37,654 nt of DNA from a virus, in the IMG/VR virus record IMGVR_UViG_3300037225_000423, positions 1 to 37,654 of that record. One strand, given 5' to 3'. Both the position numbers and the translations under genes were made by a program. The notes beneath the pieces were generated by a model. The model was not told where the DNA came from, did not search any database, and saw nothing but the letters and a program-made list of their open reading frames with translations. The number at the start of each line of letters is the position of its first letter. Positions within the stretch are counted from its first letter, which is position 1. Positions 27,140 through 37,654 of this stretch are shown here, one piece after another.

Positions 27140-27244
27140 TTAGTACCGTTAGTACCGATTTTTGCCTATTTACCTATAAGCAGCTCGTATTTACACTCTC
27201 ACGGAGATATACCAAAAAAGCCCATAATCGGTACTAACGGTACT
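27140..27244. repeat. Inverted pairs of 9-bp iterons, candidate replication origin
   Basis: TTAGTACCG occurs twice in tandem at 27140-27157. Its reverse complement CGGTACTAA occurs at 27229-27237 and again, less its last two bases, at 27238-27244. Together they form a perfect 18-base inverted repeat (27142-27159 and 27227-27244) around an A+T-rich 67-base centre, in a region otherwise rich in G+C. The element is in the 125-base gap right after the primase-helicase gene. This arrangement fits an initiator-binding origin; an operator or terminator role is also possible. Confidence 0.5.
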
Positions 27245-27253
27245 GTTTTTTGC

Positions 27254-29605
27254 CTACTGTTCGTCGTTTTCAGCGTCAATTAGGTCGATTCCCGGGTAAC
27301 TTGTCCGGCTGTTTTGCTTTACGCTGACAATTCCCCGCTCCGCCAGCTTGCGCCCGAGCATGTTCGAGGTCATTTCCCGCTCACCGGCCGCAATCGCCCA
27401 GCGCTTGTATTCGGCATACAGTCGATGTGCTGCCACCCGATAACCGGCATTCGAGGTCGTGCATTCTTCCAGGAACTGCGCCAGAATGTCGCTGTCTGCC
27501 CGGTATTTTTCGGTGGCCACCGTCACGGCCGCCGGCGGCATCAGGCCGGCGCGCTGCCATTCGATACAGCCCTCCATCGCCCATGACAGGATGCCCGAGC
27601 TTTCGGCAAGCAACTTGCGCCCGAGGTCCCGATCCTGTTCGGCGGTCGGTATCGTAACGGTGAAGGGAATTTTACGGATGCGGCGCCAGATTGCATCACC
27701 GCCGGCGTTCACACCCAGTTCGTGATTGGCGGCCAGAAATATCTTGAACGTCGGGTCAAACTGGTAAAAATCCTCGCGCATCCGGCGCGCCTTTACCGGG
27801 TCCCCGCCGGTCAGTTGCTTGACCAGGGCCTCCGCCAGCTTCTTGCCGTCCTCGACTTCGACCGATGATGCAAAGCGCACCCCTGCCAGGTCTGCAAGTT
27901 CGGTAGGGTGCCGATCGCGGCCCAGGGTCAGCACGTCCGGCGCGACCTGCTTTGCGTAGTCCCCTCCGAGCACCTTGAGGATCGCATTCAGGAACGTACT
28001 CTTGCCGTTGGCTCCCGATCCGTACAGGAAGAACAGCACTTGCTCTGACACGTCGCCTGTCAGTGAATATCCGACAACCCGGCGCATGAAGGATATGAGG
28101 TCCTGGTCTCCGGCAAAGATGCGTGCGAGAAACGCCAGCCAGGTAGGACATTCCGCATCTGGCAAATAAAACACGGGCGCCAGTTTAGTGAGCATGTCCT
28201 GGCGTTCGTGCTCGTGTAGGCGTCCGCTGCGAAGATCAAGGGTTCCGTTGAGCACATTCAACGCCCACGGGTCTGTGTCCATGTCGGTCGGCAAAACGTG
28301 GATGCCCGGCTCGGATTGCGCCACCCTCAGCATTTCCCGAATCCGGTTTCCCGATTCGCTGCGTAGGGCGTGCTTTCCAATTAGCTTGCGTGAGGTGTCA
28401 TCTGCGTCAGCGGCTTCCGCGTAGATCGTGGCAATTGTGCGCTTTGCCTTGCGCTCCGCCTCTCCAGTCTGGTCAAGAGCCCAGCGCCGGTTATCCCAAA
28501 TCAGCCACTTCTCCCACGGATGGCAGTAGCGCAGATTGTGGCCATGCATCTTGACCAGCCGATGAGCATTGCCTGTGTCAGTTAGGTGCTCGAAGGCGCC
28601 CGCATCTGTCTCTTCTGGTTGCTCCGCTTGCGCCTCGTGGTTCTGTGCAGATCTCGAAACGGGCTTGTCTTTTATCTGCCTTGGCTCTTTCATGCCGGCC
28701 GCAATTCCGCTGCGAATGGCGATTGTCGCCTCGTGTTCCCCTAAGCCAATGTCGATGGCCATCTGCAGCAGCGCGTCCTCAGTCGGCCATTGTGGCAAAA
28801 GACCGGCGCCAATGAACTGCCCGAGGGCAAATGCGGATTTATTCAACTGGTTATTGCGCCCCGGTTCGCGCGTGCGCGCGAGAATGTCTAGCTCCGATTG
28901 CACGGCCGCATTGACATACTTCTCTTTCGGTCCGGTCCCATTGGTGGGTGTGGATGGCCGGCGCCCGTTCCCGTTCGTGTTTTTCGGGGCGGGTAGAAGG
29001 GCCTCCAGATCGGTGAGCCCGTAGACACGCTCCAGGTCGGCGCGCAGAAACTTTACTATTCGAGGTGGGTCATACTTGCAGTTTAGTGTACCGGGAACTC
29101 TGAGCACCCTTGCCAGATCTTTTGAGCCCGTATCAGCGCCAGTGTAGCTGACCCAGCCCGATTGCACGGATTTTATGCGCTCTCGCGCCGGGTCGTCGGT
29201 CAAAACGAAAGGACTGTCCAGAAGGAAGTAGCAATGATAGCCCCCTCCCGAATCAATGATAACGGATGGGGCTATCGGAAGGTCCGTGATATGGGCCATG
29301 CAGGTATCTTTACTGCCACCGAAGTCCTTGGCGTCAAACTCGGCAAAGAGGCAGTTCACGGCCGCGATGTAGGCGGTTTGCGACCGAACTTCGTTTTGTG
29401 ATACCGATTTCCCCAGGGCGTTTGTGCGGGGAATAGCAACGCAAGGATGCACGCCGAAATACACATCCCGCTCGACGGGGAGCAAAAGCGGCTTGTCGAC
29501 CGGCGACCAGCGGGACTGTTTGTCGATGCCAGTCCAGGTGTAATGCCATTGCCCACCGCGGTGCAAGATGGCCAGCAGATCGTGAAAAACATCGTTACCG
29601 GTCAT
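27254..29605 (-). CDS. Primase-helicase, D5/P4 family
   Basis: The 783-residue replication protein has an N-terminal primase-like part (NCLFAEFDAKDFG with acidic residues, then SGGGYHCYFLLDSPF) and a C-terminal SF3 helicase. Walker A is GSGANGKST at about residue 530, and KIFLAANHELGV and WRRIRKIPF follow, typical of the D5-N/P4 family. It would prime and unwind DNA at the phage origin. Its start overlaps the preceding stop as ATGA. The length is within the family range and no frameshift is seen. Confidence 0.9.
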   Translation of the reverse strand: MTGNDVFHDLLAILHRGGQWHYTWTGIDKQSRWSPVDKPLLLPVERDVYFGVHPCVAIPRTNALGKSVSQNEVRSQTAYIAAVNCLFAEFDAKDFGGSKDTCMAHITDLPIAPSVIIDSGGGYHCYFLLDSPFVLTDDPARERIKSVQSGWVSYTGADTGSKDLARVLRVPGTLNCKYDPPRIVKFLRADLERVYGLTDLEALLPAPKNTNGNGRRPSTPTNGTGPKEKYVNAAVQSELDILARTREPGRNNQLNKSAFALGQFIGAGLLPQWPTEDALLQMAIDIGLGEHEATIAIRSGIAAGMKEPRQIKDKPVSRSAQNHEAQAEQPEETDAGAFEHLTDTGNAHRLVKMHGHNLRYCHPWEKWLIWDNRRWALDQTGEAERKAKRTIATIYAEAADADDTSRKLIGKHALRSESGNRIREMLRVAQSEPGIHVLPTDMDTDPWALNVLNGTLDLRSGRLHEHERQDMLTKLAPVFYLPDAECPTWLAFLARIFAGDQDLISFMRRVVGYSLTGDVSEQVLFFLYGSGANGKSTFLNAILKVLGGDYAKQVAPDVLTLGRDRHPTELADLAGVRFASSVEVEDGKKLAEALVKQLTGGDPVKARRMREDFYQFDPTFKIFLAANHELGVNAGGDAIWRRIRKIPFTVTIPTAEQDRDLGRKLLAESSGILSWAMEGCIEWQRAGLMPPAAVTVATEKYRADSDILAQFLEECTTSNAGYRVAAHRLYAEYKRWAIAAGEREMTSNMLGRKLAERGIVSVKQNSRTSYPGIDLIDAENDEQ

Positions 29606-29838
29606 GCCCCAATCCCCTCAATCGGCCAGTCTGAAAACGGGATCGCTGCTTCGAGCACGGCCTTACGTCGCCGTAGGTACTGCTCTCCCCATGCGAGTTG
29701 TGCTCGCACGGCTGCCGGTAGTTCAGCCAGCGCGTCAAGCCCGAGTTGTACCCATTCGAGGCCGCCATAGTCAGGGATGCTGCTGTGGTCTTCCGTGGTC
29801 GTGTCTATCGAGGCTAAAACATCTTTGAGTGTAGTCAT
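29602..29838 (-). CDS. Hypothetical protein upstream of the primase
   Basis: The product is 78 residues from an ATG at 29838 preceded by GGGGAGG; the frame above this ATG has no ribosome site and overlaps the membrane protein gene. The chain has an acidic N-terminus and a helical basic centre (AQLAWGEQYLRRRKAVLEAA). It overlaps the primase start by four bases, so coupled expression is likely. The function is unknown. Confidence 0.55.
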   Translation of the reverse strand: MTTLKDVLASIDTTTEDHSSIPDYGGLEWVQLGLDALAELPAAVRAQLAWGEQYLRRRKAVLEAAIPFSDWPIEGIGA

Positions 29839-30167
29839 GTCCGCCTCCCCAGTTCCTCGCGCAGCGCGGCTATCTCCCGTTTCTGTGCCTTGTCGGTCAG
29901 CACAGCCTCGGTGTCGCCGTCCCACCTGTAGCACGCAAAGTCGACGGCCCCGGCGACCACGAACACGCCGGCCACCACCAATAGCGGGACGTCCCACGAC
30001 CGCACCAGCAGGCAGTACAGCGCCAGGCCGACCAGGCACGACGTGACGCCGTAGAGGTAGGTTGCCGGCGCGCGCAACTCCAGGCGCGGTGGCCGCAGCG
30101 CGTAGTGGCCGGCGACCAGCAGGGCAGCGGCGAGCAGCGCTGCGGCAGCGAAAGCAGTGATTTGCAT
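29835..30167 (-). CDS. Small membrane protein, three predicted helices
   Basis: The product is 110 residues from an ATG at 30167 with AAGGA upstream. Hydrophobic segments are AFAAAALLAAALLVAGHYAL, YLYGVTSCLVGLALYCLLV and VPLLVVAGVFVVAGAVDFA. A short charged C-terminal helix (TDKAQKREIAALREELGRR) follows. No function is recognised. A long GC-rich hairpin precedes its ribosome site. Confidence 0.6.
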   Translation of the reverse strand: MQITAFAAAALLAAALLVAGHYALRPPRLELRAPATYLYGVTSCLVGLALYCLLVRSWDVPLLVVAGVFVVAGAVDFACYRWDGDTEAVLTDKAQKREIAALREELGRRT

Positions 30168-30186
30168 GGAATCCTTCCCCTCATGA

Positions 30187-30224
30187 GTGCCCGGCCGGCC
30201 ACACCCCTGCAGCCGGCCGGGCAC
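30187..30224 (-). other. GC-rich leader hairpin before the small membrane protein gene
   Basis: GTGCCCGGCCGGC at 30187-30199 and GCCGGCCGGGCAC at 30212-30224 form a perfect 13-bp stem with a 12-base loop. It lies between the ERF gene stop and the ribosome site of the next gene, with no T-run after it. Similar hairpins occur in other gaps of this genome. Confidence 0.55.
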
Positions 30225-30232
30225 GGCGAATG

Positions 30233-31138
30233 TCAGGCCAGCGGTACGGCGGCGAGAATCGCCTTGATGCCTTCGACGCTGTCAGCCGACGGAATCCACT
30301 CGCCGCCCACGCGCTTCCCGTTGACCAGTTCTCCGCCCACTTGCGCCGGGCTGATCCACTCGAAGCCGACGGTGCACTGGCCCACGGACCAGGCGGCCGG
30401 GTCGTCGCTGCCAAAGAGGAACTTGGTGATTGCGTGCCGGTTGGCGCTGTCGTGCTCCAGGATGGCCAGCGCGCTGCGGAAGTTCGCCCGGACTTTCCTT
30501 TCGCCATCCGGCGTCAACACGTGTGTCGCGTCCGGCTCGGAAAACTCGGCTGAGGATCGGAGCAGTTGCCGGATCTCGTCGGCCTTGCCGGCTATGCTCG
30601 CCGGAGAGGCGGGCAGATCATGGAATCCATCGCCGGCGGGTGTTTGTGTTTTTGGTTGCTCCGCGGCTGCATGGCCGTTCGTCGGGACCGGGGTGCGTGC
30701 CGGCATGGGCGCCTGGGCTTGTCGGGTCGGCTGCGTCTTTTCGCTGGCGGCGTTGCCGTCGTCGTCTTCGTCGTCTTCGTCGGCTTGCTGGCCGATGATG
30801 GCAGATAGGCCGTAGCGCCTGGCATACGTCAGAGCCGATCCCATCCCCTGGGGATCGTTTTTGATAGGATTCACCGGGTATTCGCTGGAAATCCATTGAC
30901 CGCTGGCGTGCATCAACAGTGTTACCAGCGTCAAACCATTCTCACTACGGCTGGTGATCTGCGTCACGGCTAACCCATTGGAACTCAGCGCTCCGCGACA
31001 GGCGTTCCAAATGCTGGCCAGCGTGGCGTACTTCGCATGGAAAAACGGGTTCTCGCGATCCTTCTCCGCGTTCGTCATGGCGCCTTGCGCTTTGGCGAGT
31101 GCGGCAGCCAGGTCGCCGATGCCTTCACTTGTGCTCAC
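30233..31138 (-). CDS. ERF-family single-strand annealing protein
   Basis: The product is 301 residues from a GTG at 31138 with GGGAGG upstream; an in-frame TTG at 31162 is less likely. The ERF core is at about residues 15-120: AEKDRENPFFHAKYATLASI, WNACRGALSSNGLAV, and later MGSALTYARRYGLSAIIG. A low-complexity Pro/Ala linker and an unfamiliar C-terminal domain follow. ERF proteins anneal complementary single strands in phage recombination and genome circularisation. Its start overlaps the stop of the tiny membrane ORF (GTGA). Confidence 0.85.
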   Translation of the reverse strand: MSTSEGIGDLAAALAKAQGAMTNAEKDRENPFFHAKYATLASIWNACRGALSSNGLAVTQITSRSENGLTLVTLLMHASGQWISSEYPVNPIKNDPQGMGSALTYARRYGLSAIIGQQADEDDEDDDGNAASEKTQPTRQAQAPMPARTPVPTNGHAAAEQPKTQTPAGDGFHDLPASPASIAGKADEIRQLLRSSAEFSEPDATHVLTPDGERKVRANFRSALAILEHDSANRHAITKFLFGSDDPAAWSVGQCTVGFEWISPAQVGGELVNGKRVGGEWIPSADSVEGIKAILAAVPLA

Positions 31139-31224
31139 TTGTCCTCCCGATTGACTTTCCAAAACGGCGCGATCGCGCAGACGGCGGCGATGACGAACCA
31201 GATGATGCCTTCGAGGATGCTCAT
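31135..31224 (-). CDS. 29-residue membrane peptide (MSILEGIIWF type), paralogue of the ORF at 35659
   Basis: An ATG at 31224 opens MSILEGIIWFVIAAVCAIAP followed by FWKVNREDK and a TGA overlapping the ERF GTG. The product is a single membrane helix with a basic, polar tail. It matches the plus-strand ORF at 35659 (SIFEGVVWFIVGAVPF) over its first 15 residues. The preceding gene and leader hairpin are in the same relative positions in both places. Confidence 0.55.
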   Translation of the reverse strand: MSILEGIIWFVIAAVCAIAPFWKVNREDK

Positions 31225-31235
31225 GCTAGCCACCG

Positions 31236-31571
31236 TCAGAACGGGATTTCCTGCTCTGTGCAATATTCACAAGGCCGATACTCGCCGGTCCCGAATTCGT
31301 CAGCCAGGCCGGGGATATCGAGACAGCAGCTGTCCATGATCTCTCGGACCCCCGTAAAATCGCACATCCGGCAGCCAGGCCCGGCGACCACGACCGGGAT
31401 CTCCTCGACCAGGTGAACGCTCTTGACACCCAACACGTTTGACGGTACAGTAGCCATTGATTCTAGTCTCCTTTTTGCACCGGGACCGGGACGTTTCCAG
31501 ACGTCCCGGTCCTTCGTTTGCCCTACCAACCCGCCCCGTTCGAGCTGCCAGACCCAGTAACACTCTTTCAT
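31236..31571 (-). CDS. Small Cys-containing early protein
   Basis: The frame has two good starts: ATG 31571 (111 residues, GGAGG six bases upstream) and ATG 31457 (73 residues, AAGGAG about ten bases upstream). The shorter product is the one aligned with the gene start of the duplicated plus-strand cassette. The C-terminal part has CRMCDF, SCCL and CEYC, a probable zinc site. Residues ERGGLVGQTK of the longer form are repeated in the gene at 35049. The function is unknown. Confidence 0.5.
   Translation of the reverse strand: MKECYWVWQLERGGLVGQTKDRDVWKRPGPGAKRRLESMATVPSNVLGVKSVHLVEEIPVVVAGPGCRMCDFTGVREIMDSCCLDIPGLADEFGTGEYRPCEYCTEQEIPF
31457..31541 (-). repeat. Duplicated leader element, minus-strand copy
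   Basis: From GAACGGGGCGGG through GGTAGGGCAAACGAAGG, a 12-bp perfect hairpin (31483-31494 with 31501-31512), AAAAAGGAG and an ATG, this segment matches 35277-35362 on the other strand. The stem sequence differs between copies but pairing is kept by matched changes in both arms. This argues for a conserved RNA structure ahead of a gene. Confidence 0.55.
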
Positions 31572-31596
31572 GCGGGCCTCCTCTGCGATTCATCTT

Positions 31597-31735
31597 GCGC
31601 CACCGACCCAGTTGCCGGCCGGCCCGGCGGCGTTCCCCATTGTGGTCCTCATCGCTGGCCGTCGCCTCCTGTGCTACTGCTGTTGGCCGGGGTGCACTCG
31701 GTCGTTAGCCGGCGCAACTCCCGGCCGGCTGCTGC
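31597..31735 (-). other. Gap with GC-rich inverted repeats, no supported gene
   Basis: The 225-base gap between the genes ending at 31797 and starting at 31571 holds no convincing gene. It has an inverted repeat AGCCGGC/GCCGGCT at 31707-31730 and further CCGGC-rich pairs near 31620. A 20-codon frame (MRTTMGNAAG onwards) has a distant AGGAGG and is doubtful. Confidence 0.35.
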
Positions 31736-31796
31736 CGGAGTCCGCATCGCCGCCGTATCGAGGCGACCCAGAGGTCGCACGACGCAGGCCCGGCTA

Positions 31797-32075
31797 TCAT
31801 CCGGGCACGTTCCCCGGCCCGAGTGGCAACACCAACTCTGGACATCCTGCAAGCTCATTAGTCCTATTGCCAGGGAAAACAGGTGAGTTGATGCTGTCGC
31901 TCGGAACGGTGAGCGCCGCTTCCCGTGCGCGCTTCTCGCGCAGCCAGCGCACGAAGTCGGGGCAGACCACCTCGGCAAAGAGGGAAACCGGAAGGACGTT
32001 CTTCTCCACTACCAGAAAATGTTGGGTCCATCGGCTCTCGCGCATCGGTGTCGTGGCTGTGGGGGTTTTAGGCAT
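31797..32075 (-). CDS. Hypothetical protein downstream of the HNH gene
   Basis: The product is 92 residues from an ATG at 32075 with GGAGG six bases upstream, overlapping the HNH stop. It has a helical basic core (VCPDFVRWLREKRAREAALT) and a Pro/Gly-rich tail. It is not recognised. Codon use differs little from its neighbours. Confidence 0.5.
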   Translation of the reverse strand: MPKTPTATTPMRESRWTQHFLVVEKNVLPVSLFAEVVCPDFVRWLREKRAREAALTVPSDSINSPVFPGNRTNELAGCPELVLPLGPGNVPG

Positions 32076-32673
32076 TGGCGGCCTCCGTGTATGGCTGTAG
32101 GATCGTCGAAAATGACTCCTGTGCCTGCTGTAGAGGGCCAAGAATCAATTCTGTGGTGAAAGTGGTACTCGGATGCCCTTCGTCCGAAATGAACGGTTTT
32201 TCGCCGCTCAGCGCAGGCGCTTTCCACGACAAGCTACGCACGATCCTTCCCATGGTTGTCGGGGAGATGTGAAACTCCCTGGCTAGTGCCCCGACGTGCT
32301 CGCCAGCCGCGTATCTTTGGCGAAGCTCCGAGGCTTGCGAAGGCGCCAACCTGACACTTTTGGTCCCAAGTTCCTTTCCTGGTAGCCGCCCCTTCTTGGC
32401 TGCATCCTGCATGTTCTCCGTGCGTGTTCCAGCAAACAGGTGCGTCGGGTTGCAACACGGTGGATAGTCGCAAGTGTGACAAGCCAAATAACCAGCCGGC
32501 AGTGGGCCATAAGTCAGCTCGTAGGCAATCTTCGCTGCTGTTCCACGCTTGTCGCTACAGCGAGCGAAGCCGTAGGTGTTTGGCGTTATGCCGGTTCTGC
32601 GATTGCGCCACGGCCAGCAGGCATCAGGACCGCCAGACTTGTCTATTTGTGCCCAGAATTGATTTTCGGTCAT
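32068..32673 (-). CDS. HNH endonuclease with C-terminal helix-turn-helix
   Basis: The product is 201 residues from an ATG at 32673 that overlaps the Cro-like stop. The N-terminal half is an HNH_3-type nuclease: ACWPWRNRRTG, YELTYGPLPAGYLACHTCDY, CCNPTHLFAGTRTENMQDA. Residues of about 108-145 (LAPSQASELRQRYAAGEHVG, ALAREFHISPTTMGRIV) form a resolvase-like helix-turn-helix. This architecture is common in free-standing phage homing endonucleases. It sits directly after the Cro-like gene, so it would be expressed early. Confidence 0.88.
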   Translation of the reverse strand: MTENQFWAQIDKSGGPDACWPWRNRRTGITPNTYGFARCSDKRGTAAKIAYELTYGPLPAGYLACHTCDYPPCCNPTHLFAGTRTENMQDAAKKGRLPGKELGTKSVRLAPSQASELRQRYAAGEHVGALAREFHISPTTMGRIVRSLSWKAPALSGEKPFISDEGHPSTTFTTELILGPLQQAQESFSTILQPYTEAANA

Positions 32674-32888
32674 GCCGTCTGCTCCTGGCACTCTTGACCG
32701 TTGCCAAACACGAAAGCGGCGGCCACATACCCGTACACGTCAGCAAAGTTGCCTCGAAACGATGGGGTTACCGGGGTCTTGCCGTTGAGGATGCGGCTCA
32801 GATGTTCCTCGGCAATTCCGAGTTTTGCAGCCATCTCGCGCTGCGTCATGTTGTTTGCTGCTAAGAACTGCCGTAATCCTTCGGTCAT
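32670..32888 (-). CDS. Cro-like XRE regulator
   Basis: The product is 72 residues from an ATG at 32888 with GAGG five bases upstream. The N-terminal HTH is LRQFLAANNMTQREMAAKLG followed by IAEEHLSRILNGKTPVTPS. It is the first gene of the minus-strand early operon and is divergent from a second XRE gene, with operators between. A Cro or early repressor role is inferred. Confidence 0.75.
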   Translation of the reverse strand: MTEGLRQFLAANNMTQREMAAKLGIAEEHLSRILNGKTPVTPSFRGNFADVYGYVAAAFVFGNGQECQEQTA

Positions 32889-32904
32889 ATGCACCTCGTC
32901 TGAT

Positions 32905-32918
32905 TGACTAACTAGTCA
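32905..32918. promoter_or_regulatory. Operator half-site pair 1 (TGACTA-AC-TAGTCA)
   Basis: A perfect 6-bp inverted repeat with a two-base spacer overlaps the start region of the cro-like transcript. It shares ACTAGTCA with the larger operator at 32927-32956. Confidence 0.55.
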
Positions 32919-32920
32919 TT

Positions 32921-32949
32921 AGTATAAGCCTACTTGACAAACTAGTCAA
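32921..32949 (-). promoter_or_regulatory. Promoter of the minus-strand early operon
   Basis: On the minus strand TTGACT (32944-32949) and TATACT (32921-32926) are spaced by 17 bases. The transcript would begin near 32914 and carry a short leader with GAGG before ATG 32888. The -35 box lies inside the 30-base palindrome, so binding there would block the promoter. Confidence 0.7.
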
Positions 32950-32956
32950 GTAGGCT
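32927..32956. promoter_or_regulatory. Operator 2, 30-base inverted repeat
   Basis: AGCCTACTTGAC and GTCAAGTAGGCT are perfect 12-base arms around the centre AAACTA. The repeat covers the -35 box of the cro-like promoter. It is the strongest candidate operator for the two XRE proteins. Confidence 0.65.
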
Positions 32957-33014
32957 AGGGGGGCAATTTGACACGAATATCAACATTTGCGGGGGCAGGT
33001 GGCATATTCTGCGA

Positions 33015-33020
33015 TATAAT
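33015..33020 (+). promoter_or_regulatory. -10 box of a leaderless repressor transcript
   Basis: TATAAT lies six bases before the ATG at 33027, placing the transcription start at the start codon. No Shine-Dalgarno sequence is present and no good -35 box is seen at 17 bases, which would suit a promoter that needs activation. Leaderless repressor mRNA is known for lambda cI made from PRM. Confidence 0.5.
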
Positions 33021-33026
33021 TGCGAT

Positions 33027-33254
33027 ATGGGTGCAAAGATTGGGGAGAATATAAGAGCACGGCGTCAATGGCTAGGTCTACGGCAAGAGGACGTGGCCGA
33101 ACGCGCGCGGAACTATGCTGAGGGGCATTCGATCAAAGACGAAACGTTATCAAGAATTGAAACTGGCAACAATGAACCGGGAGCATGGATGATACAGGCA
33201 CTTGCTCACGCTCTGGAGACAACTAGCGACTATATACTCGGCTTGGTGCAGTAA
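33027..33254 (+). CDS. XRE-family repressor-like protein
   Basis: The 75-residue protein is a bare XRE HTH: KIGENIRARRQWLGLRQEDV, AERARNYAEGHSIKDETLSR, IETGNNEPGAWMIQALAHAL. It lacks the C-terminal oligomerisation or self-cleavage domain of classical CI. It is divergent from the Cro-like gene and adjacent to shared operators. A lysogeny repressor role is likely but not certain. Confidence 0.75.
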   Translation: MGAKIGENIRARRQWLGLRQEDVAERARNYAEGHSIKDETLSRIETGNNEPGAWMIQALAHALETTSDYILGLVQ

Positions 33255-33298
33255 GGATCAGGCGGCCTAACCGATGAAGGGGGGGATGGCCGCTGAGT

Positions 33299-33312
33299 GT
33301 TTGCACGCGAAC
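33299..33312. promoter_or_regulatory. Near-palindrome GTTTGCACGCGAAC (site c)
   Basis: This site lies in the 257-base gap between the repressor gene and the next plus-strand promoter. It is one base pair off a perfect palindrome at each of two positions and matches the other GTTYGCRCGCRAAC sites. The same gap holds a hairpin and a promoter (separate entries). Confidence 0.35.
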
Positions 33313-33356
33313 ATGCGAGACCCTGGGCGCGCGATCAACCAGGAACTCACCACAGC

Positions 33357-33381
33357 GAGGCCCGGCGACGAACCGGGCCTC
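33357..33381 (+). terminator. Hairpin after the repressor gene, possible terminator
   Basis: GAGGCCCGG and CCGGGCCTC form a 9-bp stem with a seven-base loop. It is followed by ATGCTAAAAATTT rather than a T-run, so it is not a standard intrinsic terminator. It separates the repressor from the next promoter. Confidence 0.4.
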
Positions 33382-33438
33382 ATGCTAAAAATTTCCATCC
33401 TCCGGCAAAAACTCGTTGAAAACTCGTGGCGAAAGGTA

Positions 33439-33467
33439 TTGGCAAAGCTATATAGCTATGCTATAAT
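33439..33467 (+). promoter_or_regulatory. Promoter of the plus-strand small-gene operon
   Basis: TTGGCA (33439-33444) and TATAAT (33462-33467) are spaced by 17 bases. The spacer contains the 12-base palindrome AGCTATATAGCT (33446-33457), a possible operator. The transcript would start about 40 bases before the gene at 33512, which has CAGGAG upstream of its ATG. Confidence 0.7.
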
Positions 33468-33511
33468 ACGGTCACAGTAAGAAAAGAAACAACCACCCAG
33501 GAGCAGATACG

Positions 33512-33829
33512 ATGGCAAGCAAGCTAATCAAGACGGTAAAACGATACGTGAAGGAAAACGAAGTTCGGGTTTACGTCGATGCAGTGAGCGGCCACCGTGG
33601 CTGCAGGTATATCACCGGCAACCGCTGGCAGCCGAAGGGGACCATCGAAGGCACCTTGACCGCCGAAGAGTGGGCCGAAGCCCGGTCGATCAGCGTTTAT
33701 GACGGCAAGTGGACTACCTGCTACGACTGCAACAAAGAACCCAAGTTGGTCGCAGTGACCAGCCGCAGGACCGCATTCGACGACCCGAGCGAGTGGGCAG
33801 CGATGACCGGACGCGACGGCTCCGAGTAA
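33512..33829 (+). CDS. Hypothetical protein, first gene of the plus operon
   Basis: The 105-residue protein starts at an ATG with AGGAG upstream. The chain is basic at the start (SKLIKTVKRYVKENEVRVYV) and has a TTCYDCNKEPK knuckle near residue 70 that could bind metal or a nucleic acid. No family is recognised. It follows a strong promoter directly. Confidence 0.6.
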   Translation: MASKLIKTVKRYVKENEVRVYVDAVSGHRGCRYITGNRWQPKGTIEGTLTAEEWAEARSISVYDGKWTTCYDCNKEPKLVAVTSRRTAFDDPSEWAAMTGRDGSE

Positions 33830-33845
33830 GGAAGGATCAAACCCC

Positions 33846-33868
33846 GCCGGCGGGTGAACCAAGCCGGC
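33846..33868 (+). other. Leader hairpin with GCCGGC repeats
   Basis: Two GCCGGC units 11 bases apart can pair in the 54-base gap before the 48-residue gene, just upstream of its AGGAG. It belongs to the set of GC-rich leader hairpins in this operon. Confidence 0.35.
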
Positions 33869-33883
33869 ACAGGAGAATGCACC

Positions 33884-34030
33884 ATGAAACCAAGCAAGGC
33901 AGACAAGGAAGCAGACGAGCACCTGCTCGATCTGGAGCAGGAAGACGCTGAGCGGCGAGAGGCAGATCATATCTTGCAAATCTACGCCGGGGAAGAGCGG
34001 AACTACGACAATGAGCAAGCCAACAACTAG
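33884..34030 (+). CDS. 48-residue acidic protein
   Basis: An ATG at 33884 with AGGAG eight bases upstream opens a 48-codon frame (MKPSKADKEADEHLLDLEQE onwards, ending NEQANN). The product is highly charged and helical. It overlaps the next gene by 20 bases. The function is unknown; small acidic early proteins are sometimes host-takeover or DNA-mimic factors. Confidence 0.6.
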   Translation: MKPSKADKEADEHLLDLEQEDAERREADHILQIYAGEERNYDNEQANN

Positions 34031-34319
34031 CCTTTACATCCGTGCCGATACCCGCCCGCTGGCCGCGGCGGCCAAGCGCCGTGGCTACACTCAGACCCGC
34101 GGCGCGGGCGCCGGCGAACTACCGAGCGTGTCGCAGTTTATCGGCGCCCTGGCTGCCGGCGAGCTTGTCGCCGTCGGTCCGGTCATGGCCTGGCGAGACG
34201 TGACAAACGGACTGTGCAAGGCTCTCGCAACGTACGACCTGACCGATCGTGAGCGCGAGTCGCTCGAAACGATCTTGCACCAGATCGAAGTCGAGGGCGA
34301 CTTCACCGCAGACGACTGA
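34011..34319 (+). CDS. Hypothetical protein
   Basis: The 102-residue protein begins MSKPTTSLYIRADTRPLAAA, has a Gly-rich basic loop, then a helical domain (VSQFIGALAAGELVAVGPVM) and an acidic tail. It starts inside the preceding gene. No family is recognised with certainty. Its stop lies in a segment repeated after the gene ending at 37296. Confidence 0.55.
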   Translation: MSKPTTSLYIRADTRPLAAAAKRRGYTQTRGAGAGELPSVSQFIGALAAGELVAVGPVMAWRDVTNGLCKALATYDLTDRERESLETILHQIEVEGDFTADD

Positions 34320-34347
34320 CACACCACGCCGGGTCGCGCGACCCGGC
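34308..34347 (+). repeat. Dispersed repeat with hairpin, copy 1
   Basis: GCAGACGACTGA and the following CACC, then a perfect 20-base palindrome (34328-34347), match 37303-37343. The palindrome forms a GC-rich hairpin, and two further small hairpins follow before the GAGGAG of the next gene. Confidence 0.5.
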
Positions 34348-34386
34348 AGCACAGGGGGCTGCGACCCTAACGCAGAGGAGAACAAA

Positions 34387-35049
34387 ATGAATTGGCAGGA
34401 ATGGACAAGGACGGCAGAGGGCGAGAAATCACTTCTAGAGAAACTGGAAGCACCTTCACCTTACCGACCAATCCGCCTAACCGCCACAGGAGGCCACCCG
34501 ATGAACCAGCCGATCACCGCACCCACAGGAGGAACCATGAAACTGCAAACCTACACCATCGCCGATATCCGTTCGTTGCACCCATGCTACGACCCGACCC
34601 GCTACCTGCCCGAAACGTGGACAGGCACCGCCGTGGACGTGCTGAAAGTCGCCGCCTGCCCGGCGGAGGATCGTCTGTGGGTGGTCACGCAGTGGCTGGA
34701 CGACCGCACGCTGCGGCTATTTGCCGTCTGGTGCGCACGCCAGGCGCTGGCGCTGATCGCAAACCCCGCCCCCCCCAGCGTGGCGGCCTGCGATATGGCG
34801 GAGCGATTCGCCAACGGCCAGGCGAGCGCGGATGAGTTGGACGCAGCCGGGGCCGCAGCCAGGAACGCAGCCTGGGACGCAGCCTGGGCCGTAGCCTGGG
34901 ACGCAGCCGGGGACGCAGCCGGGAACGCAGCCTGGGACGCAGCCAGGGCCGCAGCCAGGGCCGCAGCCAGGGCCGCAGCCTGGGACGCAGCCAGGGCCGC
35001 AGCCGGGGACGCGCAGATCGCGCACCTGATCGAAATGCTGGAGGAGTGA
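34387..35049 (+). CDS. Ala-rich tetrapeptide-repeat protein with three candidate starts
   Basis: Three in-frame ATGs have good ribosome sites: 34387 (GAGGAG), 34501 (AGGAGG) and 34537 (AGGAGG). The widely seen form starts at MKLQTYTIADIRSLHPCYDP. The folded part continues with YLPETWTGTAVDVLKVA and LRLFAVWCARQALALIANP, then DMAERFANGQASADELDAAG. Residues from about 34842 are some 14 tetrapeptides of the form [DNA]-A-A-[WRG], encoded by 12-base tandem repeats. The tail IAHLIEMLEE closes the protein. Such Ala-rich proteins are common in phages of environmental bacteria; the function is unknown. Confidence 0.65.
   Translation: MNWQEWTRTAEGEKSLLEKLEAPSPYRPIRLTATGGHPMNQPITAPTGGTMKLQTYTIADIRSLHPCYDPTRYLPETWTGTAVDVLKVAACPAEDRLWVVTQWLDDRTLRLFAVWCARQALALIANPAPPSVAACDMAERFANGQASADELDAAGAAARNAAWDAAWAVAWDAAGDAAGNAAWDAARAAARAAARAAAWDAARAAAGDAQIAHLIEMLEE
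34842..35016 (+). repeat. Imperfect 12-bp tandem repeats (coding)
   Basis: Units such as GCAGCCTGGGAC and GCAGCCAGGGCC repeat about 14 times inside the Ala-rich gene. The reading frame is kept and variation is mostly W/R/G and D/N/A changes. Copy number could vary by slippage. The reverse strand is also open here but is only a mirror of the repeat. Confidence 0.75.
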
Positions 35050-35363
35050 TGAAACCCGCAGCGAAACCCGCCGGCGCCGTCACCTATCGCCAGCACACGA
35101 TCGTCGTCGAGCCCGGCCCGAACGCCGGCCTCTACCAGTACACCGCCACCTGGAGCGGCGAAACGACTGGCCACACGTTTGGCCGCACGCCCGCCGGGGC
35201 GCGCCAGTCGGCCAGGGCCGCGATCAACCGGGCCATCGACGGCACGGCCGCCCAGCAGCGCGCAATGGGGTTACGAGAACGGGGCGGGCTGGTAGGTAAA
35301 ACGAAGGGCCGGAACGCCCGTGAAGCATTCCGGCCCCCATCCAAAGGAGTTGAATCTCAATGA
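35049..35363 (+). CDS. Hypothetical protein ending in the duplicated ERGGLVGKTK segment
   Basis: The product is 104 residues from an ATG at 35049 that overlaps the previous TGA. The N-terminal domain is beta-rich (AVTYRQHTIVVEPGPNAGLY, then QYTATWSGETTGHTFG) with a helix (ARQSARAAINRAIDG). The last 30 codons overlap the duplicated leader element, whose hairpin is thus also coding here. The stop overlaps the next ATG. Confidence 0.6.
   Translation: MKPAAKPAGAVTYRQHTIVVEPGPNAGLYQYTATWSGETTGHTFGRTPAGARQSARAAINRAIDGTAAQQRAMGLRERGGLVGKTKGRNAREAFRPPSKGVESQ
35277..35362 (+). repeat. Duplicated leader element, plus-strand copy
   Basis: This copy matches 31457-31541 on the other strand: GAACGGGGCGGGCTGGTAGG, AAAACGAAGG, a hairpin (35306-35317 with 35325-35336, one C-A mismatch), AAAGGAG and an ATG at 35360. 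Against the other copy, an A-T pair has become G-C and a G-C pair has become A-T, keeping the stem. Confidence 0.55.
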
Positions 35364-35662
35364 ACAGAGTACAGCAAAACGAGTTACTTGTCAACCGGGT
35401 CGATCTGGCGAGCGCCGTCATGGTCGCGCTGCCGACACTGTGCGAGCCGGTCGAAGATCAGCACAGCTTTTTCTGGGTGGCGACCGACTCGGACGACATC
35501 CGCTATTACGGCCAGAGCGCGCTGGACTGCGAGCGCCAGTTTGCGGCCGAGCTGGTGCGCTTGGCCGTGTGCGTCGGCAACGGCAACGCGGAAGCGGTTG
35601 CGGAGCGGTGGCACGACAGCGAGACCACCGATCGTGAGGAGATGGAGGGATGGCTGACGTGA
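35360..35662 (+). CDS. Hypothetical protein of the duplicated cassette
   Basis: The 100-residue protein starts with MNRVQQNELLVNRVDLASAV and has a WVATDSDDIRYYGQSALDCE segment. It is acidic and soluble. It holds the same place relative to the leader hairpin and tiny membrane ORF as the gene at 31236, with only faint N-terminal similarity. The function is unknown. Confidence 0.6.
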   Translation: MNRVQQNELLVNRVDLASAVMVALPTLCEPVEDQHSFFWVATDSDDIRYYGQSALDCERQFAAELVRLAVCVGNGNAEAVAERWHDSETTDREEMEGWLT

Positions 35663-35712
35663 GCATCTTCGAGGGCGTCGTGTGGTTCATCGTCGGCGCC
35701 GTGCCTTTTTGA
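35659..35712 (+). CDS. 17-codon ORF (SIFEGVVWFIVGAVPF), probably a truncated paralogue
   Basis: A GTG at 35659 overlaps the previous TGA and has GGAGGG upstream. The frame ends at TGA 35710-35712 right after a run of five T. A -1 slip at TTTTT would read on through LIAAVPGWLNRRQPAGT, giving a membrane helix with a basic tail like that of the ORF at 31135-31224. It is either a frameshift-disrupted gene or a slippage-dependent one. Confidence 0.4.
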   Translation: MSIFEGVVWFIVGAVPF

Positions 35713-35724
35713 TAGCCGCCGTGC

Positions 35725-35751
35725 CCGGCTGGCTGAACCGTCGCCAGCCGG
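35725..35751 (+). other. Leader hairpin before the gene at 35776
   Basis: CCGGCTGGC and GCCAGCCGG form a 9-bp stem with a nine-base loop, 14 bases before GGAGG of the next gene. It overlaps the possible slippage extension of the tiny ORF. Confidence 0.5.
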
Positions 35752-35775
35752 CCGGGACATTCGTGGAGGAATCCC

Positions 35776-36216
35776 GTGGAACACAATGTGCTGGACCAGT
35801 TGATTGCCAAATTTCCGACTTTCGATCCTGACTTTCGCCCGGAGGAGCAAACTGCCTGGTTCGCCGGCTTTGACCGGCTGCTGACCATCATCACGGCCTT
35901 CGAGCGTCAGGAAGCTGCCCGGGAGACCGTGCCGGCCCCGATCGTCGAGCCCGTGCCGACGCCCGGACGCAACGGCACAGTTGTCGTCCCCCCCCGCCGG
36001 CCGGGCAACGCCGTGATCACCGCCACCAACATGGTCGACATCCGGCGCCTGGTCACCGCCGGGCATTCGGCCCGTGCGATCGCCGAGGAGCTCGGCTTGC
36101 CACAGGCGGCCGTGGGCAGTTGGTGCACCAGGATCCGTAAGGAGGCCGCTGCCGGCGAGGCCGGGTTTCGTGACGGCAGCCGTGCCGCCACCGGCCAGCA
36201 GCATGACGCCGCCTGA
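35776..36216 (+). CDS. Helix-turn-helix DNA-binding protein
   Basis: The 146-residue protein starts at a GTG with GGAGG upstream. The N-terminal part (KFPTFDPDFRPEEQTAWFAG) is of a type seen in other phage early proteins; a Pro-rich linker follows. Residues of about 85-123 are a resolvase/homeodomain-like HTH (IRRLVTAGHSARAIAEELGL, PQAAVGSWCTRIRKE). A regulatory role in the plus operon is possible. Confidence 0.65.
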   Translation: MEHNVLDQLIAKFPTFDPDFRPEEQTAWFAGFDRLLTIITAFERQEAARETVPAPIVEPVPTPGRNGTVVVPPRRPGNAVITATNMVDIRRLVTAGHSARAIAEELGLPQAAVGSWCTRIRKEAAAGEAGFRDGSRAATGQQHDAA

Positions 36217-36436
36217 GAGCGCCGTCGCCGGCGAGATCTTGGAGCCTGGTGCGCCGTTTAGTTTCATCCTGTACGCCCCTCCCCAGTTGGCCATCGTTGC
36301 CGGCGAACGCTGGTGCGCCAAATGCGGCGAGAGTATCTTCGCCGGCGACGTCGTCTGTTCCCGTTGCGGCAGCCGGCAGGGAGTCGATCCGCTGACCGTC
36401 CTGCAGCCGCACGAATATCGCCGGGCTGCGGTGTGA
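36203..36436 (+). CDS. Small zinc-ribbon protein
   Basis: The product is 77 residues from an ATG at 36203 overlapping the previous gene; the frame extends further upstream but only inside that gene. The zinc ribbon is WCAKCGESIFAGDVVCSRCG with four Cys. There is no strong ribosome site, so translation is probably coupled. The function is unknown. Confidence 0.55.
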   Translation: MTPPESAVAGEILEPGAPFSFILYAPPQLAIVAGERWCAKCGESIFAGDVVCSRCGSRQGVDPLTVLQPHEYRRAAV

Positions 36437-36476
36437 AGCCCGCCGGGACATTCGCACCATCCGAAGTGAGGAACCC

Positions 36477-36728
36477 ATGAATTACGCAGAAACAATTGTC
36501 GGGTCGTTCACCCTGAAGCATACCCGCGTCAAATCCGTGCGCGCCGACCTGTTGGCCGGCAGTATTTCGGTGACGTTCGTGGTCACCCTGGACGAAGAGA
36601 GCCTGCGCGCGGGCAAGCATCTGCAGCACCTGTTCGGGGACGATGACGTCAGCCTGGACCTGACCGTCACAGAGAAACGGTGGCAGCCACTTCGTGAGCG
36701 AACGCAGGGCCAAGGCTCGCGGGATTGA
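36477..36728 (+). CDS. Hypothetical protein
   Basis: The 83-residue protein has GTGAGG upstream of its ATG. It has an N-terminal beta-rich part (TIVGSFTLKHTRVKSVRADL, then SISVTFVVTLDEESL) and a basic C-terminal tail. No family is recognised. Confidence 0.5.
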   Translation: MNYAETIVGSFTLKHTRVKSVRADLLAGSISVTFVVTLDEESLRAGKHLQHLFGDDDVSLDLTVTEKRWQPLRERTQGQGSRD

Positions 36729-36930
36729 TGCCGGCCAGGTGCCGACGATGGAACAGATCACGGCGAAGGCCGGTGAGATTCTGAGCAGCCGCAAGGCCGT
36801 CCCCGCCAAAGGCAACGGCCACGACCCGGTAAGCATGAAGGGATACTCCGTCGGAACGCCAGTCTTCGCCCTGGCCTTTGGCAAAGACGTTCCCGAGGCA
36901 GTCGTCAAGGCGATCGCGTCCTGGAAATAG
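36694..36930 (+). CDS. Hypothetical protein
   Basis: The 78-residue protein starts at a GTG inside the previous gene without a strong ribosome site, so reinitiation or coupling is needed. It has a helical region (VPTMEQITAKAGEILSSRK), a Gly/Ser turn and a hydrophobic C-terminal helix (DVPEAVVKAIASWK). The function is unknown. Confidence 0.45.
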   Translation: MSERRAKARGIDAGQVPTMEQITAKAGEILSSRKAVPAKGNGHDPVSMKGYSVGTPVFALAFGKDVPEAVVKAIASWK

Positions 36931-36942
36931 TATTCACGCCCC

Positions 36943-36964
36943 GCTGGCCGGGCAAAAGGCCAGC
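36943..36964 (+). other. Leader hairpin before the last plus-strand gene
   Basis: GCTGGCC and GGCCAGC pair around GGGCAAAA, directly followed by AGGAGAACACC and the ATG at 36976. It is the cleanest case of a hairpin abutting a ribosome site in this operon. Confidence 0.5.
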
Positions 36965-36975
36965 AGGAGAACACC

Positions 36976-37296
36976 ATGAAATTGTCCTACGTTGATCTGC
37001 TCGGAGATGGGCAGCGACACGAGATCGCCGCCGCCGTGACCGCGGACCACCCCGCATCGAGCTACGGTATCCCGGTCGTCGTGCTGCCGGATGGCGAGTC
37101 GCTGGACGTGGCCTCGTGGATGATGCTCAACTACCAGGTAGTCAAGGCGACACCGGACGAATTTGAGGCATTGCATCGGGCACTCAGTCCGTACACCATT
37201 CCTACGGCTGCGGCGACCCTCGGCTCAATCAAGTCACAGCGCAAAGCCGCCGCCAGCGCAGCCAATGGCCGCAAGGGTGGCCGGCCGAAGAAGTAG
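36976..37296 (+). CDS. Hypothetical protein with basic AT-hook-like tail
   Basis: The 106-residue protein starts at an ATG with AGGAG upstream. The first 75 residues are a mixed alpha-beta domain (HEIAAAVTADHPASSYGIPV, then VVLPDGESLDVASWMMLNYQ). The last 21 residues are strongly basic and end GRKGGRPKK, similar to an AT-hook, suggesting DNA contact. It is the last gene of the plus operon. Confidence 0.55.
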   Translation: MKLSYVDLLGDGQRHEIAAAVTADHPASSYGIPVVVLPDGESLDVASWMMLNYQVVKATPDEFEALHRALSPYTIPTAAATLGSIKSQRKAAASAANGRKGGRPKK

Positions 37297-37302
37297 CCAA
37301 AA

Positions 37303-37343
37303 GCAGACGACTGATGCACCGCGCCGGGCCAACCACCCGGCGC
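37303..37343 (+). repeat. Dispersed repeat with hairpin, copy 2 (operon end)
   Basis: GCAGACGACTGATGCACC followed by the stem GCGCCGGG/CCCGGCGC (37321-37343) repeats the segment at 34308-34347. Here it lies after the last plus-strand gene and before the convergent minus-strand gene. It may serve as a terminator or mRNA end, but no T-run follows. Confidence 0.45.
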
Positions 37344-37354
37344 ATTCGCGCGGT

Positions 37355-37368
37355 GTTCGCACGCAAAC
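37355..37368. promoter_or_regulatory. Near-palindrome GTTCGCACGCAAAC (site d)
   Basis: This copy of the GTTYGCRCGCRAAC pattern lies between the convergent operon ends, 11 bases after the hairpin of the dispersed repeat. No gene covers it with confidence. Confidence 0.35.
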
Positions 37369-37434
37369 GTGGGGACCGTCAACGCCGGGCTCAGCTCGCA
37401 CCCTCCACGCCCGGTTGGCTGCCATCAGTTTCTC

Positions 37435-37654
37435 CTATGTGATGATAAGCCGGTAGTAAATCGTCCAGTTCACCAGGATCGGGTCCGGCGTGCTGTACTT
37501 GGTCGCGTGCAGGTCGAAAAAGCCGTAGTGGGCGGGCGTAACGAGCCCGGATGGAGTATGGTTAGTCCAGCCGTGGCCATCGGCATGTGTGTCGACCGTG
37601 TTGCACAGGTTGGTTGCATTCGTCATATCACTGTCCAGCGAACGGAATTGCAGC
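37435..37654 (-). CDS. C-terminal fragment of a probable tail or fibre protein
   Basis: The minus-strand frame is open from the right edge to a stop at 37435, about 72 residues. The sequence is beta-rich with aromatic residues (THADGHGWTNHTPSGLVTPA, then ending VNWTIYYRLIIT), like the ends of minor tail or fibre proteins. An internal ATG at 37626 has no convincing ribosome site. It converges with the plus operon and would be the last late gene if the late operon continues outside the window. Confidence 0.45.
   Translation of the reverse strand, partial: LQFRSLDSDMTNATNLCNTVDTHADGHGWTNHTPSGLVTPAHYGFFDLHATKYSTPDPILVNWTIYYRLIIT

Follow-up and report, generated by a model that had tools for sequence, protein, structure and literature searches.

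Homologous hairpin leaders in two oppositely directed operons of a phage probably hosted by Chloroflexota

The lambda nut sites consist of boxA plus the boxB hairpin. The put RNAs of phage HK022 have two stem-loops, with putL located immediately behind PL and putR ~270 nt downstream of the PR start (PMC9378689). Start codons may also have repeated elements next to them: a cluster K mycobacteriophage genome holds 11-19 copies of SAS, a 13-bp asymmetric sequence GGGATAGGAGCCC adjoining many start codons, and about half of the copies are extended to ESAS, 17-bp inverted repeats with a shared consensus. The changes in the two ESAS arms speak against RNA pairing, and the elements hold putative promoters (PMC11373665); the SAS/ESAS repeats travel with their genes across related phages. 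The T4-type PeSL (Arbiol 2010; Comeau 2014), as outlined in PMC4503421, are composite motifs that join an early promoter to a terminator stem-loop and are dense in shuffled regions. Here we compare with these systems two pairs of hairpin leaders in one phage genome.

The stretch of DNA analysed, called the window below, is a complete IMG/VR record of 37,654 bases with a GC content of 61%. Its minus strand codes for the portal, the terminase large subunit, the major head protein and the endolysin, and also for a DNA methyltransferase, a primase/helicase-like protein and an ERF-family annealing protein. The relatives of the terminase in genomes are mostly from Chloroflexota MAGs, so that the host is probably a member of this phylum. 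The phage is probably temperate. A divergent repressor region is marked by helix-turn-helix (HTH) genes at 32894-32670 (minus) and 33027-33254 (plus), and the two oppositely directed runs of non-structural genes are probably early operons. Upstream of the minus HTH gene, two operator-like palindromes at 32900-32960 share AACTAGTCA (TTGACTAACTAGTCA and AGCCTACTTGACAAACTAGTCAAGTAGGCT) and overlap a promoter-like TTGACT-17-TATACT at 32949-32921 (minus). Another strong promoter-like sequence, TTGGCA-17-TATAAT with TG before the second hexamer, lies at 33439-33467 (plus) upstream of the gene at 33512. Elsewhere in the window, 37-nt inverted arms (AGTACCGTTAGTACCGAT..., 81% complementary, 29 nt apart) at 27142-27244 follow just after the primase/helicase gene and are possibly an origin or a recombination site, and a 12-bp tandem repeat of 14.5 copies at 34839-35012, within the ORF 34249-35049 (plus), codes for Ala-rich A-A-W-D / A-A-R-A repeats. 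The features of the two operons are as follows.

31455-31541, minus: leader 1, minus copy, with the conserved 31-nt block GAACGGGGCGGGTTGGTAGGGCAAACGAAGG, the hairpin, AAAAAGGAG and the start codon (alignment, fold z, pair count)
31483-31512, minus: stem of this leader 1 copy, 12 bp with a 6-nt loop (pair count; pairing probability ~1)
31236-31457, minus: middle gene, 73 aa, Cys-rich (CxxC...CC...CxxC) (ORF listing, SD/start scan)
31135-31224, minus: tiny ORF MSILEGIIWFVIAAVCAIAPFWKVNREDK with one likely membrane segment, read from the sequence
30233-31138, minus: ERF-family single-strand annealing protein, minus operon only (PF04404, E 3.4e-25; tblastn)
30165-30235, minus: leader 2, minus copy, beginning at the ERF stop codon, with a 13-bp stem at 30224-30187 and the SD and start of the next gene
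29835-30167, minus: gene after leader 2, for a hydrophobic membrane-like protein MQITAFAAAALLAAALL... of 110 aa
35049-35363, plus: ORF running through leader 1 (105 codons in the ORF listing, from GTG 35046)
35277-35362, plus: leader 1, plus copy (inverted-repeat scan, alignment)
35306-35336, plus: stem of this leader 1 copy, 9 bp, a C.A mismatch and 2 bp, with a 7-nt loop (pair count, folding)
35360-35662, plus: middle gene, 100 aa (ORF listing)
35659-35712, plus: tiny ORF VSIFEGVVWFIVGAVPF and stop, its start overlapping the stop of the middle gene (GTGA)
35710-35778, plus: leader 2, plus copy, beginning at the tiny ORF stop codon, with a stem within 35724-35756 and the SD and GTG of the next gene
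35776-36216, plus: HTH protein gene after leader 2 (weak HTH-family matches, best E about 3e-4)

Leader 1 exists as two homologous copies on opposite strands. The local alignment of 31700-31100 (minus) with 35200-35800 (plus) scores 72, while 1,000 dinucleotide shuffles gave a mean of 22 (sd 2.4) and a maximum of 34. The two segments are thus homologous where an earlier note on this DNA had placed them, and the shuffling which that note named as a possible refutation speaks for it. Within the window no inverted repeat is stronger than this pair (40 nt, 88%), whose homology begins abruptly at 31541 (minus)/35277 (plus). The block preceding the stem matches at 28 of 31 positions (~90%), in agreement with the strong match over ~30 bases noticed earlier, and the 100 nt upstream of the block are at the background level with 37% ungapped identity. 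From there the homology extends past the stem and the SD, and it tapers off ~15 codons inside the middle gene. The changes between the copies fall 3/1/1 on the codon positions of the ERGGLVG frame and hence are not biased towards third positions, which indicates a constraint at the nucleotide level; ERGGLVG as a conserved peptide was rejected, since coding selection is unsupported.

Compared over their whole lengths, the two operons share three colinear blocks. These top blocks score 72, 49 and 36 and have the same order and orientation, against 33 for the next inter-operon block and a peak of 32 among unrelated 4.6-kb stretches of the window. On both strands the order is leader 1, tiny ORF and leader 2, with the ERF gene between the last two in the minus operon only. 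The third block, absent from the earlier note, is a second hairpin leader at 30235-30165 (minus) and 35710-35778 (plus), whose alignment score of 36 was equalled by none of 2,000 shuffles. Leader and membrane peptide had been regarded as one module, and both do occur in each operon. But they are separable, because the colinear set includes a second leader, and the ERF gene stands before leader 2 in the minus operon.

We tentatively favour an inverted operon duplication followed by gene replacement around conserved cis-acting intercistronic mRNA hairpins. One operon segment, the ancestor of part of both operons, would have been duplicated in inverted orientation, with the copies flanking the repressor region. 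The two leaders and the tiny membrane ORF between them would have stayed alike, in the same order on both sides; the middle genes would have been replaced, and the ERF gene would either have entered the minus copy or have disappeared from the plus copy. Each leader would act in cis as an mRNA hairpin, serving as a mark or protection on the 5' side of the next cistron (processing or stability) and leaving the ribosome-binding site accessible; with this site open the next gene would be expressed largely independently of the preceding one. The homology of the parts, their order and orientation, the potential for hairpins with paired changes and the place before SDs are directly shown, and from there we infer the duplication history, the early-operon transcription and the effect on translation or mRNA stability.

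The genes between the leaders differ in how much of them is shared. The middle genes had been described as almost completely diverged, and their bodies are indeed unrelated, but the first ~15 codons are weakly alike (9 of 1,000 shuffles as good). Of the picture of a shared cassette, the homologous leader and the tiny ORF in both divergent operons are supported. No family match was obtained for the minus middle protein, in which CRMC and CEYC pairs are zinc-ribbon-like in look, and no significant one for the plus protein, which has no CxxC. The tiny membrane ORF is common to both segments as claimed, with a 52-nt match scoring 49 against a shuffle maximum of 27 (0 of 1,000 as good). Its differences are mostly conservative hydrophobic swaps, while those of leader 1 are not at third positions. 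Conservation is therefore at the nucleic-acid level in leader 1 and plausibly at the peptide level in the tiny ORF. The minus tiny ORF has its stop overlapping the likely ERF start, GTG 31138. The plus tiny ORF has 17 codons only and ends at a T5 run (35700-35715) where the other frame goes on with a hydrophobic stretch, FLIAAVPGWLNRRQ; it is possibly frameshifted there, with sequencing error, real frameshift and programmed slippage indistinguishable. In unrelated phages (loci L034, L036 and L041) a tiny membrane-type ORF also lies close upstream of an ERF gene, so such a neighbourhood may recur.

The pairing of the leader 1 stem is largely kept in both copies. Among its 12 positions, 8 have identical pairs, 3 are changed on both sides (A-U/G-C, G-C/A-U and U-A/C-G) and 1 is broken, from C-G to C.A in the plus copy, and hence 11 of 12 pairs are kept, three of them through double changes. 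The compensatory changes reported earlier are therefore present, but they number three rather than two and come with one broken pair. No position was changed on both sides in the slid-partner controls, and if the changes were placed at random, the probability that each of the three 5' changes coincides with a 3' change would be about 0.018; random exchange of the 3' letters between the rows, however often, reached the observed value in 65 of 500 trials. As there are only two copies in one genome, the covariation rests on one pairwise comparison, and the paired changes in these two sequences are suggestive, though no proof, of selected pairing.

Folding favours the hairpin in the minus copy of leader 1 (z of -3.2, pairing probability ~1.0). 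The plus copy has a z of 0 and a local stem probability of ~0.09, and in its 86-nt leader taken in isolation the forced hairpin reaches -20.5 kcal/mol versus -27.9 for the minimum of the whole leader, which is a different fold. The earlier claim of a 12-bp hairpin in both copies thus fits the minus copy, but for the plus copy another fold has the lowest energy. Apart from its one strong stem, the two-sequence consensus of leader 1 contains at most a 4-pair 5' helix, which is weak. For leader 2 the z values are -3.9 (minus) and -2.8 (plus), and all 18 consensus pairs are kept, four of them through one-sided changes; a two-sided change was rejected for this leader, the changes being one-sided in the consensus register. 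Leader 1 may be translated as the tail of upstream ORFs and its hairpin thereby melted. The frame of the minus middle gene is open upstream to ATG 31571, and the ORF 35049-35363 (plus), for which blastn/tblastn on phages and plasmids gave no convincing relative, has its TGA overlapping the start of the plus middle gene (ATGA); ribosomes would run through leader 1 if these upstream frames are translated.

Alternatively, the shared blocks could be mere relics, left over from an inverted duplication and carrying no RNA function that is under selection today; intergenic hairpins would be tolerated, and the paired changes would have arisen by template switching within a palindrome (quasipalindrome correction). 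Template switching makes imperfect palindromes perfect and would yield double changes. The two copies per leader, the island-like blocks amid otherwise unrelated sequence and the unfavoured fold of the plus leader 1 all agree with such relics. However, the 31 nt before the stem are 90% identical while their neighbours have diverged to background, and two independent hairpins have both been kept at the same place ahead of SDs, and we consider the relic hypothesis unlikely, though with a real share of the probability.

The leaders were found in this genome only. Leader DNA patterns scanned in IMG/VR and in one scan of genome contigs had only coding or unrelated matches, and the match L003 lies inside an ORF of the opposite strand. 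A covariance model of leader 1, run on collected loci, 396 Anaerolineae and 400 Chloroflexota genomes, gave chance-like matches only, with E of 4e-5 at the top (two genomes, same intergenic sequence) and 0.008-0.09 for the others. We read the genome matches as chance. Most were judged in genomic context, and these are GC-rich hairpins between host genes, several of them terminator-like, or coding sequence; L066 and L069 were judged from alignments only. The leader 2 model, run on 50 sources, returned its own two copies plus weak matches with E of 0.009-0.08, two of which are the same palindromes on the other strand. By blastn/tblastn on phages and plasmids we found no further copy of a leader or tiny ORF, nor did tblastn on phages/plasmids or a degenerate peptide scan reveal relatives of the tiny peptide, whose matches in the 396 genomes have E of 0.02-0.1, the chance level. 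The TerL relatives are mostly 51-68% identical; in the 11 TerL-related records searched the leader is absent and there is no ERF match. No ERF relative has a leader of the same structure upstream, and the primase gave no relatives. Some collections may omit records near the window's own, and the absence of close kin is not established by these searches. The covariance-model search and the tblastn for the SI(L/F)EG peptide suggested in the earlier note have thus added no copies and no relatives, with ~800 Chloroflexota genome searches included; with both copies lying within one genome and no further one found, its idea of a module exchangeable between phages is unsupported.

Hairpins shortly before an SD are by themselves not rare. 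A stem with a score of at least 9 ending 4-18 nt before the SD occurs at 4 of the 152 SD/start candidates in the window, which are the four leaders, none of them at structural genes, versus 17 of 1,607 (1.1%) in the related loci. The arrangement is hence only mildly enriched here, and the special point of the leaders is their pairwise homology in two divergent operons. A fifth strong palindrome is further from an SD, within the promoter region of the minus HTH gene. Each leader hairpin ends about 4-11 nt upstream of the SD, which is outside the stem, and no T-run follows the stem on the sense strand in any of the four leaders, by reading of the sequences and by the terminator scan. The leaders are therefore not ordinary sense terminators, and ordinary termination or SD sequestration is unlikely. 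Searching 29000-37654 against Rfam gave no match at the gathering score and none overlapping leader 1, and the only match touching the leader 2 region is a sub-threshold GRIK4_3p_UTR at 30081-30168 (plus) on the opposite strand (E 0.68).

Leader 1 could instead be an intrinsic terminator of the opposite strand, an insulator that keeps antisense transcription away from the repressor region. Its stem read in reverse is followed by TTCGTTTTACC (plus) or TTCGTTTGCC (minus), and of the two copies only the plus one is called by the terminator scan, on the minus strand; the terminator-like hairpins between genes among the host-genome matches of the covariance model point the same way. Leader 2, however, has no such tract in either direction, and a terminator needs neither the conserved GAACGGGGCGGGYTGGTAGG block nor a place before the SD, which makes an insulator quite improbable. 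We regard it as very unlikely that the inverted repeats are DNA sites for a phage protein, an operator or a promoter element, as proposed for the cluster K ESAS; these inverted repeats precede the start-associated sequences, and in Adephagia they contain putative promoters (PMC11373665). Here the paired changes between the half-sites of the two copies would be disfavoured by a fixed DNA-binding protein, a consensus scan found no sigma-70-like promoter on the sense strand of the leaders (other host promoter types are not covered by it), and the obvious operator-like palindromes at 32900-32960 have a different sequence.

The arrangement of leader 1 also calls to mind a processive antitermination site for each divergent operon, like HK022 putL/putR or lambda nutL/nutR, whose RNA modifies the polymerase such that later terminators are read through. 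There is one copy per divergent operon, the operons flank the HTH repressor-like genes, and the ~85-nt shared sequence with its hairpin compares with the HK022 puts of ~70 nt, which are similar to each other and present once per early operon (PMC9378689). But in its two-sequence consensus leader 1 shows a single strong stem and at best the weak 4-pair 5' helix rather than two stems, it sits directly on a start site at a distance of ~1.4-1.8 kb from the promoter-like sites, and its homology extends into the gene and to the tiny ORF. Besides, the region holds 7 terminator-like sites where 7.3 are expected by chance, and the proteins scanned, which cover part of the ORFs, include no recognisable N- or NusG-like one. 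We hence think antitermination improbable. The broader proposal that leader 1 is a cis RNA element jointly modifying transcription or translation in the two divergent early operons, be it put/nut-like or a new regulator-binding leader, has a similarly small chance in our judgement. We know of no such cis RNA element in a phage lineage linked to Chloroflexota.

Should the duplication with conserved intercistronic hairpins be true, hairpin leaders that are kept while the intervening genes are replaced would be a hinge for phage operon shuffling, and one outside the mycobacteriophage and T4 examples. For work on antitermination or mRNA control in phages whose host phylum has been studied little, the leaders also offer a concrete RNA element pair.

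The described SAS/ESAS, PeSL and putL/putR come closest in form. The leaders are like SAS/ESAS in being short repeated elements just upstream of the start codons of a subset of non-structural genes, and like ESAS in being inverted repeats with a variable spacer. Unlike the 11-19 SAS/ESAS copies there are two pairs of elements with pairing largely kept; the leader ends CAAAAAGGAGACTAGAATCAATG and CCAAAGGAGTTGAATCTCAATG differ from SAS and occur in two copies only. In contrast to ESAS, leaders 1 and 2 differ in sequence and their arms do support pairing, and the SigA-like promoter of ESAS has no counterpart in the sense-strand consensus scan of the leaders, which does not cover other host promoter types. 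Like the T4 PeSL as outlined in the source above, they are cassettes with a stem-loop that lie between small genes and go along with shuffling of the genes nearby; unlike the PeSL of that outline they number only four, with no sense T-run and no promoter found. With HK022 putL/putR they share two similar elements of ~70-90 nt, one per divergent operon if the two runs are early, but differ in that the single strong stem of the consensus adjoins a gene start, at a long distance from promoter-like sites; among the defining features of put/nut, the one-per-operon arrangement is the only one clearly seen in leader 1. We thus class the leaders as phage intercistronic hairpin leaders rather than as members of ESAS, PeSL or put/nut.
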